This document shows, one piece after another, positions 6,921 through 10,845 of a DNA stretch of 22,470 bases. The first letter of the stretch is position 1; each line of letters opens with the position of its first letter. Origin of the DNA: a virus; the IMG/VR virus record IMGVR_UViG_3300025806_000246, positions 1 to 22,470 of that record; one strand, 5' to 3'. The position numbers and the translations under genes were made by a program. Under the pieces are notes generated by a model that saw only the letters and a list, made by a program, of their open reading frames with translations, ran no database searches and was not told where the DNA came from.

Positions 6921-7385
6921 ATGGCTGGATATTTAGGCGCTATACCTGTCCCGCAGGCTACACAAACGCGACAGACCTTCACGGCTACCTCTGGGCAAAC
7001 TAGCTTTGCTACGGCGGGCTATACGGCGGGCTTCGTGGATGTCTATATGAACGGCGTGAGGCTGGTCGATGGCACCGATTTCACGGCTACCAACGGTTCT
7101 GACGTTGTGCTGACATCTGGCGCTGCCACTGGCGACATCATCGATTTGCTGATGTTCACGGCGGTTGACCTTGCGACTGCGGTTGGCGGGGGTCGCTACA
7201 AAGGCGAGCGCGGTACGGTTGGCCCTGCGGCTGCGGCTGGTGACATCTTTCGTGTGTCTGAGCAAACCCTTAACACAAATGTAACCATCGACGCGACAGA
7301 GAACGCTTCTGCTACTGGCCCCTTGGCTGTAGCATCAGGTGTTACGCTAACAGTCGCAAGCGGAGGGAACTTGTCCATTGTCTGA
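6921..7385 (+). CDS. Fibre-like protein with FVDVYMNGVRL domain
   Basis: A 154-residue protein. Residues 17-85 form a beta domain common in phage fibre proteins: TRQTFTATSGQTSFATAGYT, then FVDVYMNGVRLVDGTDFTAT, ATGDIIDLLMFTAVDLA. The C-terminal part (about 112-154, RVSEQTLNTNVTIDATENAS then VASGVTLTVASGGNLSIV) is a second recurrent block, a short beta-helix-like end. The first residues, MAGYLG, match the start of the preceding S74 fibre (MAGYIG). A strong GGAGG at 6907-6911 precedes the ATG. The gene is GC-rich (34 of 60 bases in 7021-7080 by hand count), unlike the fibre genes around it, suggesting a separate origin. Confidence 0.76.
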   Translation: MAGYLGAIPVPQATQTRQTFTATSGQTSFATAGYTAGFVDVYMNGVRLVDGTDFTATNGSDVVLTSGAATGDIIDLLMFTAVDLATAVGGGRYKGERGTVGPAAAAGDIFRVSEQTLNTNVTIDATENASATGPLAVASGVTLTVASGGNLSIV

Positions 7386-7770
7386 TATTAGAGCAAATAC
7401 GATAAGCGCAGCAAATGGGACTGACCCCGTTACGCTGACTAAGCAGAGTGCTTCTAAGGCTCATTGTACTTTTAATGGCACTGGCACTATTGCTGTAAGT
7501 GGTACGAGTTTTAATATATCTTCACTAACGGATAACGGCACTGGTTTGTATCGCACAAATTTTACAAACAATATGGAAGATGGAGAGCATGTAGATGCTT
7601 TTGCTTGTCGTGAAAACACATCATCTGATGGCGGTGATATAAACAGGGTAGCTAATTACAATAGGGTAAGTCAGGCGGCTTCTTACACTGACTTAACTAC
7701 ACAAACAAGTTTAACAACTCCAGTTGATGTGGCTCGGATTTGTGTTGTTACGCATGGAGGTCTAGCATGA
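7378..7770 (+). CDS. Small fibre-associated protein, SDIRANTIS family (TTG start)
   Basis: A 130-residue protein that appears to start at TTG 7378, overlapping the upstream stop by eight bases. The family signature SDIRANTISAANGTDPVTLT begins directly after this codon, and no ATG upstream in frame fits. GGAGG at 7362-7366 lies 11 bases upstream, a little far. Core blocks are KQSASKAHCTFNGTGTIAVS (about residues 22-41), SFNISSLTDNGTGLYRTNFT and a C-terminal HGGLA. Two tandem relatives follow. I know the family from many marine phages, where several copies occur beside fibre genes. It is probably a small trimeric tip or fibre-capping beta protein. Function is unproven. Confidence 0.72.
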   Translation: MSDIRANTISAANGTDPVTLTKQSASKAHCTFNGTGTIAVSGTSFNISSLTDNGTGLYRTNFTNNMEDGEHVDAFACRENTSSDGGDINRVANYNRVSQAASYTDLTTQTSLTTPVDVARICVVTHGGLA

Positions 7771-7771
7771 G
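7756..7771 (+). promoter_or_regulatory. Conserved coupling junction 1 (SD within last codons, ATGA)
   Basis: GGAGGTCTAGCATGAG. GGAGG lies 6 bases before the ATG of the next gene and is encoded by the last codons of the upstream gene (GlyGlyLeuAla-stop). It is almost the same sequence as at 8094-8109 and 8465-8480. Confidence 0.75.
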
Positions 7772-8108
7772 TACACTAACGGTCACAAACATCCAAGCCA
7801 CGGGTGAAACAGCTAGTCGTGCAGTGTCAGGCGTTGCGGCGGCGTTATTGTTTTATGGAAGCCAAGCTATAATTGGCTCAAGAAACATTAGTTCTGTAGC
7901 CGATATTGGCACAGGCCAGTTAACAATTAGTTTTTCAAACCACTTTGCAGATGACGATTGGGTTGGGCATCACACGACAGAAGATGAGCAGCCATATATA
8001 AACACAAACAGGACAGCCTCTGGGGTTACTTTAGTTAACAAAACCAGAACAGATGCTACTTCGGACTGTAGTGATGGAAATGCCACAATACACGGAGACT
8101 TAGCATGA
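7767..8108 (+). CDS. Small fibre-associated protein, second tandem paralogue
   Basis: A 113-residue protein from the ATG at 7767, which has GGAGG six bases upstream and overlaps the previous stop (ATGA). A longer in-frame reading from 7740 lacks a ribosome site. It is the most diverged of three adjacent relatives: MSTLTVTNIQATGETASRAV at the start, FYGSQAIIGSRNISSVADIG where the others have FNGTGTIA..S.NI.SLTDNG, TGQLTISFSNHFADDDWV, and the shared end GDLA. Being a divergent copy, it may recognise a different partner or receptor. No catalytic residues are visible. Confidence 0.75.
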   Translation: MSTLTVTNIQATGETASRAVSGVAAALLFYGSQAIIGSRNISSVADIGTGQLTISFSNHFADDDWVGHHTTEDEQPYINTNRTASGVTLVNKTRTDATSDCSDGNATIHGDLA

Positions 8109-8109
8109 G
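8094..8109 (+). promoter_or_regulatory. Conserved coupling junction 2
   Basis: GGAGACTTAGCATGAG. GGAG encoded in the GDLA-stop codons precedes the overlapping ATGA start of the third paralogue. It matches the junctions at 7756 and 8465. Confidence 0.75.
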
Positions 8110-8479
8110 TACGTTAAACGTTTCCAACATCACCGATGGCACAGATACAGTCGGCACCAGCTATGTGGTCAATGGGTCTGCAAAGGCTTGGGTAAACTTT
8201 AATGGGACTGGGACCATTGCTATACGGGACAGCATGAATATTGGTAGCCTAACGGATAATGGCACAGGCGATTATAATGTTAATTTCAGTGCTAACATGG
8301 CAAACTCAAATTATTGCGCAGTTCTGGGTCATAGGGGCAATAGGCCCGGTGATGGCGATAACGGGCTGTCTGGTTATGCTGCATCAACTTATGAACTAAA
8401 CTCACGCTCAGGAAACCAAGACTCTTCGAAAGAGGATAGTGACCGTATGCACAGTTCAATATTCGGAGACCTAGCATGA
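8105..8479 (+). CDS. Small fibre-associated protein, third tandem paralogue
   Basis: A 124-residue protein with the clearest family signature of the three: MSTLNVSNITDGTDTVGTSY, then VNGSAKAWVNFNGTGTIAIR (about residues 22-41), DSMNIGSLTDNGTGDYNVNF, SANMANSNYCAV, and the end FGDLA. It is close in pattern to the 7378 gene over the central block and shares the first residues (MSTL) with the 7767 gene. It starts at ATGA with GGAG eight bases upstream. The C-terminal third (GHRGNRPGDGDNGLSGYAAS and onward) differs from its relatives, as expected for the part that might contact a receptor. Confidence 0.77.
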   Translation: MSTLNVSNITDGTDTVGTSYVVNGSAKAWVNFNGTGTIAIRDSMNIGSLTDNGTGDYNVNFSANMANSNYCAVLGHRGNRPGDGDNGLSGYAASTYELNSRSGNQDSSKEDSDRMHSSIFGDLA

Positions 8480-8480
8480 G
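8465..8480 (+). promoter_or_regulatory. Conserved coupling junction 3
   Basis: GGAGACCTAGCATGAG. The same GDLA-stop/ATGA arrangement occurs here, although the downstream gene (8476) is not a member of the paralogous family. Confidence 0.72.
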
Positions 8481-8901
8481 CCACCTCTGGGATCGCCTAG
8501 CAGAAGCTAAGTCACGCCTTGCACCTGTGCAGTCGAAGTATCGTGTGCTGTTCGAAGACCCGACACAGCCTGATGCTCCTGCCGCTGTGCTTGTGCCTGA
8601 CCCTAACTGGATGGCTGCTGCACTGGCTGGTGGTGTACTGCCACCCATCGACACATACCTTCGTGACCAGAACGTACCAGACGGACAGCCCAAAGAGCAT
8701 CCGTATGCTGAGCCTATCCCTGCTATGACTGAAGAAGAGGCGATTGAGTACCTCATTATGAAAGACATCCCGCCGCAAGTGTGGCGTGACTACCAAGGCA
8801 ACAGAGCAGTCATGAAGATTGTACCTGTAGAATTGATCCCATCGGATCGTAGTTTCCGCAATGCGTGGAAGATTAATCAAGAAATGGAGATGGCAGCATG
8901 A
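8476..8901 (+). CDS. Tail-fibre-associated small protein, possible assembly factor
   Basis: A 141-residue acidic protein. A helical start (LWDRLAEAKSRLAPVQSKYR) is followed by a Pro-rich middle (DPTQPDAPAAVLVPDPNWMA and LRDQNVPDGQPKEHPYAEPI), then a helix TEEEAIEYLIMKDIPPQVWR and the end IPSDRSFRNAWKINQE (about residues 121-136). That P-x-DR-x-FR-x-AW motif also occurs near the start of the next protein (PADRTFRGAW). In alphaproteobacterial and marine phages this motif occurs in small proteins beside fibre genes, sometimes annotated as tail-fibre assembly chaperones. The gene is GC-rich (37 of 60 bases in 8581-8640) relative to its surroundings. An assembly role is inference; a small tail protein is the alternative. 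Confidence 0.65.
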   Translation: MSHLWDRLAEAKSRLAPVQSKYRVLFEDPTQPDAPAAVLVPDPNWMAAALAGGVLPPIDTYLRDQNVPDGQPKEHPYAEPIPAMTEEEAIEYLIMKDIPPQVWRDYQGNRAVMKIVPVELIPSDRSFRNAWKINQEMEMAA

Positions 8902-9245
8902 CCACTTACATCAATATCAACGGTGATGTCCGTGAGGCATCTTCTCTGGTCGTACCAGCGGATCGCACCTTTCGTGGCGCTTGGTCATTTAATGGCGATG
9001 CTGTCGAAGTAGACATGACAGCGGCAAAGGCCATCCACAAGGACAACCTACGCGCAGAACGTGCGCCTCGCTTGGCTGACTTGGACGTAGAGTACATGAA
9101 GGCTCTTGAAGCTGGTACAGGCGCTGATGCTATTGCTGCACAAAAGGCAACGCTACGTGACATCACAGACGATGCTCGCATTGATGCTGCGGCAAACCCT
9201 GATGCGCTGAAGGCATTGGACTTGGCTACCCTGTTGGGAGAATAA
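8898..9245 (+). CDS. Tail-fibre-associated small protein with ADRTFRGAW motif
   Basis: A 115-residue protein starting at ATGA, with GGAG at 8886-8889. The start MTTYININGDVREASSLVVP and motif ADRTFRGAWSFNGDAVEVDM (residues about 21-40) are followed by a helical region: AKAIHKDNLRAERAPRLADL, DVEYMKALEAGTGADAIAAQ, KATLRDITDDARIDAAANPD. I know this layout (beta start, FRxAW, then HxxNLRxxRxPxLxxLDVxxM) from many alphaproteobacterial and marine phages, usually next to fibre genes; some annotations call it a tail assembly chaperone. The long helix would suit a chaperone or a tail-tip clamp. It is GC-rich like its partner upstream. The role is not demonstrated. Confidence 0.7.
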   Translation: MTTYININGDVREASSLVVPADRTFRGAWSFNGDAVEVDMTAAKAIHKDNLRAERAPRLADLDVEYMKALEAGTGADAIAAQKATLRDITDDARIDAAANPDALKALDLATLLGE

Positions 9246-10315: not shown

Positions 10316-10498
10316 ATGGATAGTTCAATGACAATTTTATCGGCACAATATATAGCAATAGATAATGTAAATGATACAGTTAAAGCCACTATAGACGGAC
10401 AAGAGCTATCAGTCCCACTAGACCCAGCCAACAGACACTACGCAGAGATACTACGCCAAGTAGAAGCTGGCACACTAACCATTGCAGATGCTGACTGA
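10316..10498 (+). CDS. Small protein with NRHYAEILRQVEAGTLTIADAD end
   Basis: A 60-residue acidic protein. The first half is beta-like (TILSAQYIAIDNVNDTVKAT, IDGQELSVPLDP). The end NRHYAEILRQVEAGTLTIAD is one I recognise in small proteins near phage fibre genes, where a N-x-Y/HY-x-x-x-x-x-W/V-x-x-G pattern recurs. GGAG at 10304-10307 supports the ATG at 10316; ATG 10328 is a second possible start. The stop overlaps the next ATG (TGATG). It may be a tail-fibre assembly or tip accessory, but nothing more specific can be said. Confidence 0.68.
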   Translation: MDSSMTILSAQYIAIDNVNDTVKATIDGQELSVPLDPANRHYAEILRQVEAGTLTIADAD

Positions 10499-10845
10499 TG
10501 TTAGGTTTTTCCCCACTAGCTGACAACTCTATCGCGGGGTTTGACACGCTAAACTCTACGGTGACGGGAGTTCAAGCTACTGGTGCCGTGGGAACAGTAA
10601 GCGTTGACACAGAAATATCTGTAACAGGCGTTCAAGCCACAAGCGCGGTTGGAACGGTCAGCGTTTCTGCAGAAATATCTGTAACAGGCGTTCAAGCCAC
10701 GGGCCTTATTACGAAGGCACTTGTTTGGGGACAGATTACACCTTCTCAGTCTTCAAGTTTTTCTGCGATTACACCTTCTCAGTCTTCAAGTTTTTCTGCG
10801 ATTACACCTTCTCAGTCTCCAAGCTGGGAGGATATCGCTGCGTAG
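10498..10845 (+). CDS. Repeat-built short fibre protein (VTGVQATGAVGTVSV / TPSQSSSFSAI)
   Basis: A 115-residue protein made almost wholly of two tandem repeats. Residues about 21-69 hold a 20-residue unit (VTGVQATGAVGTVSVDTEIS) in two full copies and one partial copy. Residues about 79-109 hold an 11-residue unit (ITPSQSSSFSA) in two exact copies and one altered copy ending SQSPSWEDIAA. Marine-phage proteins with VTGVxATGxVGTV units and a TPSQxPxWxxI end are familiar to me. The valine/glycine units would form stacked beta strands, giving a short shaft whose length can change by adding 20-residue steps. Function is inferred from architecture and position among fibre genes. Confidence 0.75.
   Translation: MLGFSPLADNSIAGFDTLNSTVTGVQATGAVGTVSVDTEISVTGVQATSAVGTVSVSAEISVTGVQATGLITKALVWGQITPSQSSSFSAITPSQSSSFSAITPSQSPSWEDIAA
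10561..10700 (+). repeat. 60-bp in-frame tandem repeat
   Basis: Units are at 10561-10620 and 10621-10680, with a partial third copy from 10681. The first two match at 45 of 60 positions by hand count. A 31-base stretch is exact at 10610-10640 and 10670-10700. Each unit is 20 codons, so copy-number change keeps the frame. Confidence 0.88.
10735..10824 (+). repeat. 33-bp in-frame tandem repeat
   Basis: Units 10735-10767 and 10768-10800 are identical. A third, 24-base partial copy at 10801-10824 differs at two positions. Each unit encodes 11 residues (ITPSQSSSFSA). Confidence 0.92.

Follow-up and report, generated by a model that had tools for sequence, protein, structure and literature searches.

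How can a row of small phage genes carry the same short piece of DNA at each gene boundary beside gene bodies that have diverged, and what does such a boundary do? The question is raised by a locus in the window, the term used here for the whole 22,470-nucleotide stretch of viral DNA that was analysed, where three consecutive gene junctions share a 16-base sequence. The array, its conservation among relatives and the borders of DNA exchange within it are described below, and the possible causes of the conserved junction are then weighed.

A repeated junction in a tail-tip gene array

The junction sequence GGAGRYYTAGCATGAG is present in the window in three exact copies, all on the + strand as direct repeats. 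With 0.05 copies expected, chance is ruled out as the source of the repeat; tolerating up to two mismatches uncovers no fourth copy in the window, and three copies occur in no shuffled sequence. Each copy combines GGAG with the closing codons Gly-Asp/Gly-Leu-Ala-TGA and with a 4-nt overlap (ATGA) between the stop and the following start, GGAG lying 7 bases from the ATG. The preliminary description had reported three junctions of one form, each holding a ribosome site, the last codons of one gene and the overlapping start of the next, and these elements are all found, exactly, at the three positions given (Table 1). Its statements that the third junction opens an unrelated gene and that the DNA repeat lies beside diverged gene bodies are also borne out, as gene D is unrelated to the other three and these are paralogous members of PHROG 11355 (E rounded to 7e-17, 1e-4 and 2e-18).

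Table 1. Features of the tail-tip array and its flanks in the window
Feature	Position	Strand	Description
Gene U	6921..7385	+	Small tail-fibre-like protein; ORF with PHROG tail fiber matches; directly 5' of the array
Slot-1 tip gene	7378..7770	+	TTG start, overlaps U; PHROG 11355, E 6.7e-17
Slot-1 N-module	~7378-7461	+	
Slot-1 exchangeable C-domain	~7462-7755	+	
Junction 1	7756..7771	+	GGAGGTCTAGCATGAG
Slot-2 tip gene	7767..8108	+	ORF; PHROG 11355, E 1.1e-4
Slot-2 N-module	~7767-7844	+	MSTLKVTNIQATGETASRAVSG
Slot-2 C-domain	~7845-8093	+	
Junction 2	8094..8109	+	GGAGACTTAGCATGAG
Slot-3 tip gene	8105..8479	+	ORF; PHROG 11355, E 2.4e-18
Slot-3 N-module	~8105-8188	+	
Slot-3 hinge codon	8189..8191	+	TGG, Trp29 of AKAW; usual 5' exchange border in relatives
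Slot-3 C-domain	~8189-8464	+	
Junction 3	8465..8480	+	GGAGACCTAGCATGAG; leads into gene D
Gene D	8476..8901	+	Conserved small protein, function not assigned; constant 3' flank of the array
Gene E	8898..9245	+	Coupled gene after D; PHROG 20196, with weak similarity to tail assembly families

The proteins of slots 1, 2 and 3 each match the PHROG 11355 'tail fiber protein' profile over most of their length, and none has a Pfam match above the cut-off; the three genes upstream of the junctions are, judged by these profile matches, diverged paralogues. Gene U adjoins the array in 137 contig groups, and E comes after D in most relatives. Gene D, which has no PHROG match and no meaningful Pfam match, has homologues in phage HMO-2011 and Dunaliella viridis virus SI2. 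The locus is best explained as an array of marine podovirus tail-tip genes of the putative receptor-binding type, like that of phage HMO-2011.

Several further observations concern the locus and its surroundings. The TTG start of the slot-1 gene (window 7378) lies within the end of U in an 8-base overlap, and TTG is found there in several relatives as well. At window 10498-10845, a small protein built of repeats (TGVQATxAVGTVSV and ITPSQSSSFSA) is possibly another fast-changing tail part. For Dunaliella viridis virus SI2 (L333, HQ332136) the record gives a green alga as host; as this virus has a D gene and a tail-fibre gene resembling those of these bacteriophages, the host label looks doubtful.

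Conservation of the junction in relatives

Approximately 460 loci were gathered by protein similarity searches and one pattern scan; the loci of the latter, which bias codon counts, were excluded from the codon comparison with gene bodies and from the GDLA counts. Most loci fetched with the slot-2 and slot-3 proteins contain the exact motif one to four times (the slot-1 query returned mostly distant, non-array tail fibres), and the repeat occurs across hundreds of contigs of marine phages as well as in the isolate HMO-2011. A search of bacterial genomes turned up four matches, all weak, and hence no prophage or host link.

A family profile delimited 728 non-redundant gene ends: the overlap is ATGA in 438 and TAATG in 195, and 95 have neither. 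With pattern-fetched loci excluded, GDLA-stop closes 302 of 334 ATGA-overlap ends, 61 of 64 TAATG ends and 8 of 136 uncoupled ends. The preliminary description had suggested comparing synonymous divergence at junctions with that in gene bodies, and the comparison shows junction DNA kept beyond what the codons demand: at GDLA ends Gly is encoded by GGA in 98% of cases against 26% in gene bodies, and Asp by GAC in 93% against 36%, while 95% of ATGA ends have CTA or TTA for Leu. The columns directly 5' of the junction are near random, with less than 0.7 bit each. GGA is accounted for by the ribosome site and the Ala codon GCA by the ATGA overlap; the choice of GAC and of the Leu codon is explained by neither. 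Restriction-site avoidance was considered as a cause of GAC and rejected, as GAT favours TTA over CTA by 15 to 4, numbers that are too small.

The junction is also not a general habit of gene ends in these phages. Among 3348 ORFs examined, those ending in GDLA are all family members, and the D-to-E junction of the same phages is ATGA-coupled in 86 of 166 cases with no fixed sequence; a fixed 16-mer is thus not the way in which these phages build every coupled junction. At L043:4607-4639, a slot-1 gene ends early (TAG) just 5' of the junction, and GGAGACCTAGCATGAG is intact after the stop with GDLA not encoded.

Exchange of C-terminal domains

Each tip gene encodes an N-module of ~27 residues followed by a C-terminal lectin-like domain of ~95 residues. 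The contigs compared are metagenome assemblies. Mean identity to the window in 41 relatives is 76% for U, 81% for D and 71, 82 and 81% for the three N-modules, against 33, 31 and 37% for the respective C-domains; relatives whose U reaches 92-94% identity still have C-domains at 27-40%. Close C-domain pairs between different contigs number 62, and in 25 of them the attached N-modules share under 50% identity; a mismatched swap of this kind is present in 20 of 51 clusters of C-domains. Since N-modules normally evolve more slowly, alike C-domains on unlike N-modules are not a product of point divergence.

The borders of exchange were read from chimeric pairs. In 21 of them, DNA identity is 83% over the C-domain and 89% over the junction, and falls to 49% upstream, 55% in the N-module and 53% downstream, where random sequence gives 48%. 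A gene of slot-2 type and one of slot-3 type (L089 and L313), for example, share DNA identity from the hinge codon TGG to the junction. The 3' end of exchange lies at the junction in 23 of 35 cases (1.5 expected, a figure that presumes independent pairs and uniform borders and is only indicative) and at the next gene's hinge in 8; the 5' end lies at the hinge or junction in 38 of 43, and in 20 of the 43 pairs the breakpoint falls +65 to +115 nt past the ATG. Taking one pair per component leaves the border picture the same. These comparisons indicate that exchange is usually of the C-terminal domain and not of the whole gene, with junction-to-next-hinge exchange occurring as well, and that the swappable domain has its 3' border at the junction, which is presumably also the coupling element for the next gene.

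The hinge itself is written in mixed synonymous codons (GCG/GCA/GCT), with no fixation comparable to that of the junction. Arrays that lack the 16-mer and end their genes in AIFR-stop exchange C-domains too (L050/L067, L348/L350 and L044/L069). In the related arrays L044, L048, L050, L067, L348 and L350, genes end in AIFR-stop with no overlap, and C-domains are exchanged in some of them.

Slot order and gene number

The preliminary description had envisaged recombination that adds, drops or swaps small tip genes and had asked whether their number and order vary. Both are near constant: between U and D, 113 of 137 contig groups contain three family genes, 8 contain four, 2 contain one and 14 apparently contain two. 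Frequent gene loss is rejected, since these 14 'two-gene' arrays mostly have a gap of 500-1400 bases holding an undetected gene and are mainly under-counts. Of the earlier proposal, what stands is that the junction is a real exchange border, with coupling apparently kept through exchanges; adding and dropping of genes are not the main process, and the usual unit is the C-terminal domain.

The slots are recognizable by their N-termini, such as MSEIRATTISDAAGTGPITLTKQSAAKAW, MSTLKVTNIQATGETASRAVSGVAAAW and MSTLNVSNITDGTDTVGTSYVVNGSAKAW, and 287 of 323 genes have their best match in the same slot; the slot-1 N-module MSEIRATTIS... is conserved. Gene addition occurs, but rarely. In 6 of the 8 four-gene arrays, an extra gene with the N-module MSSTLTVTN... 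lies between slots 2 and 3 with perfect junctions on both sides. The clade with this fourth slot (N-module MSSTLTVTNLTATNLTDGGGTTSTFAN) comprises L111, L119, L126, L127, L086 and L283. In another of the 8 arrays (L128), a 49-residue mini-gene, MSTIRVDNFGPSAGG...IHGDPA, with the junction GGAGACCCAGCATGAG, stands between slots 1 and 2 and resembles a decayed inserted cassette.

Predicted structure of the slot-3 protein

The model of the slot-3 protein has a mean pLDDT of 92, with a lectin-like tip domain at residues 25-122. As a monomer model, this segment resembles the tip domains of tailspikes (phiAB6, Pam1 and LKA1), R-pyocin fibres and H-type lectins, with Z scores of 8.8 to 5.3 and rmsd of 1.8-4.2 A; a Foldseek search against the PDB gave the slot-3 model no match under 0.001. 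In the model, hinge residue 29 opens the first strand of the domain and GDLA (121-124) lies beyond the last strand, so that the exchanged DNA would correspond to one structural domain plus a tail.

Mechanism and competing explanations

The best explanation, which we consider highly probable, is a three-slot tail-tip array in which N-modules are fixed per slot and C-domains are exchanged between hinge and junction. The slot-specific N-module of ~27 residues would fix the place of the protein in the tail tip, and the lectin-like beta-sandwich domain of ~95 residues after it would bind the receptor. In co-infecting phages, homologous or annealing-type recombination, presumably carried out by a phage annealing protein or host RecA, would replace the C-domain from the AKAW hinge to the GGAG-AY-YTA-GC-ATGA junction or, alternatively, a segment that begins at one junction and ends at the hinge of the following gene. 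The Shine-Dalgarno site coded as Gly, the 7-base spacer and the overlapping start would form a common adaptor; because every piece would end in the same adaptor, any piece could work in any slot with the downstream genes still translated, and a piece without the adaptor would shut off the genes that follow and then disappear. We infer coupled initiation at GGAG, the type of recombination enzyme and selection for interchangeability. The efficient or minimal pairing length of Red beta is 23-27 bp, and phage Rad52-like proteins recombine diverged DNA (PMC3945230); as 16 bases fall short of that length, flanking homology or a less exact process would be needed. No recombinase family is common to the relatives in 26 records, which are mostly fragments.

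What has kept the 16-mer itself is a separate matter. It may be a selected standard connector, at once recombination border and translation coupler, through which different slots and different genera of marine phages would draw on a common stock of interchangeable receptor-binding parts, a proposal that is possible but on balance doubtful. The bias at codons not obviously set by translation and the persistence of the motif without a start overlap favour a partial role in recombination; swapping by motif-free arrays and the unfixed hinge codons count against it, the latter implying that recombination alone does not fix codons. Alternatively, with a prospect only slightly short of even, the junction is kept purely as a strong coupling element, and borders lie there since only domain-precise chimeras survive, illegitimate recombination having been filtered by function. 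The 7-base spacing of GGAG from ATG, the Ala codon forced by the overlap, the two observations just cited on motif-free arrays and hinge codons, and the retention of GGAGACCTAGCATGAG in L043, where the reading frame stops just 5' of it, are in line with conservation for translation alone. This account is harder to reconcile with the coupled D-to-E junction that has no fixed sequence, with biased GAC and Leu codons outside the ribosome site, and with the retention of GGAGAC-YTA-GC where the overlap with a start has been lost, as at several gene ends including those of L126, L307 and L111. As it addresses the cause of conservation, it is partly compatible with the three-slot reading of the exchange unit and its borders, and the degrees of confidence given to the two do not sum to one.

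The remaining alternatives are less probable. GDLA could be a C-terminal signal for folding or assembly of tip proteins, which would suit its near invariance in coupled genes and its retention in L032, where each of the four codons differs and no overlap is present; this is unlikely, given that codon choice is fixed as well as the residues, that uncoupled relatives end in IFR or FGD (...AIFR-stop) without the GDLA tail, that the tetrapeptide lies past the last strand of the model, and that its Asp is replaced by G, E, V, S, N or A. Shuffling of domains by a dedicated site-specific recombinase or reverse transcriptase, as in a shufflon or a diversity-generating retroelement, resembles the present case in combining a constant N-part with alternative C-parts, and is nevertheless very improbable: reverse transcriptase is found in 0 of 26 records, many of them fragments and one a 33.8-kb contig of the same virus, a serine recombinase in 2 and a tyrosine recombinase in 4, the repeats are direct and not inverted, and the exchanged domains are unrelated alleles and not point-diversified copies. 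Least probable of all is that the three genes, homologous as they are, represent recent tandem copies whose junction has not yet diverged, for the C-domains have diverged to ~30% and the flanks to near randomness with the 16-mer intact over hundreds of diverged genes, and slot-specific N-modules mark the slots as old and stable.

Comparison with known systems

Boundary sequences (Clark et al. 2001, cited in PMC3945230) reportedly lie at the borders of mosaic modules in lambdoid phages such as HK620, and the ninR region of lambda is a chain of genes with ATGA overlaps. The window family resembles these in its short conserved DNA at gene borders, stop/start overlap, mosaicism at the borders and unrelated sequence outside them, as in the 21 chimeric pairs; unlike the lambdoid early genes, it forms a structural tail-tip array, and its second border lies inside a gene.

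In the T-even gp37/38 system, short conserved motifs of the tail-tip gene flank the receptor-binding segments that are exchanged (1998 work, cited in PMC11414711). The likeness is that a C-terminal domain is exchanged and the N-part stays, as in the 25 of 62 pairs above, with receptor binding presumed here; the window family differs in its three parallel slots, each with a distinct N-module, and in that one border coincides with a gene junction in which the following gene has its ribosome site and start. The branched tail-spike complex of Ackermannviridae combines several receptor-binding proteins in which the N-terminal domain is conserved and specific to its position and the C-terminal domain can be exchanged; its tail-spike genes are large and separate, and the accessible part of that source describes no shared 3' coupling adaptor (PMC11414711). 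In marine phage metaviromic islands, the C-termini of tail fibres and C1q-like tip proteins are hypervariable between close relatives, and the accessible text shows this variability without giving the exchange unit, its borders or a junction sequence (PMC3909814).

The closest case is the small tail-fibre array of Puniceispirillum phage HMO-2011, which has the same PHROG 11355 family, the same junctions and gene D beside the array. In this cultured phage (L331), the junctions read GGAGACCTAGCATGAGTT and GGAGACCTAGCATAATGC, and the D homologue is 46% identical; its genes are annotated merely as putative tail fibre proteins, with no slot or exchange structure annotated. The likeness covers the tail array and gene D, and the window's stabilisation protein is nearest to those of DSL-LC04, CRP-902, HTVC023P and other podoviruses, at no more than about 40% identity. 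Shufflons and invertible tail fibres need inverted repeats and a conserved site-specific recombinase, and diversity-generating retroelements need a reverse transcriptase, requirements with which the direct repeats and the recombinase and reverse transcriptase counts given above are at odds. The pattern combines two known ideas, namely the swapping of adhesin segments that lie between conserved motifs and the presence of boundary sequences where mosaic modules meet; a non-exhaustive search of the open-access literature turned up no account of either the junction or the slot grammar.

Implications

Metaviromic islands have raised the question of how marine phages can alter their binding tips with few changes elsewhere, and for this family the exchange unit, both of its borders and the slot grammar can now be given. 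GDLA-stop with GGAGAY-YTN-GCATGA or ...GCATAATG provides a searchable tag by which the pool of tip domains becomes countable in metagenomes. The array also offers a rare case for directly testing the 'boundary sequence' model of mosaicism in phages, which is under debate, and it indicates that a polycistronic array can tolerate domain swapping when every part supplies the start site from which the adjoining gene is translated.
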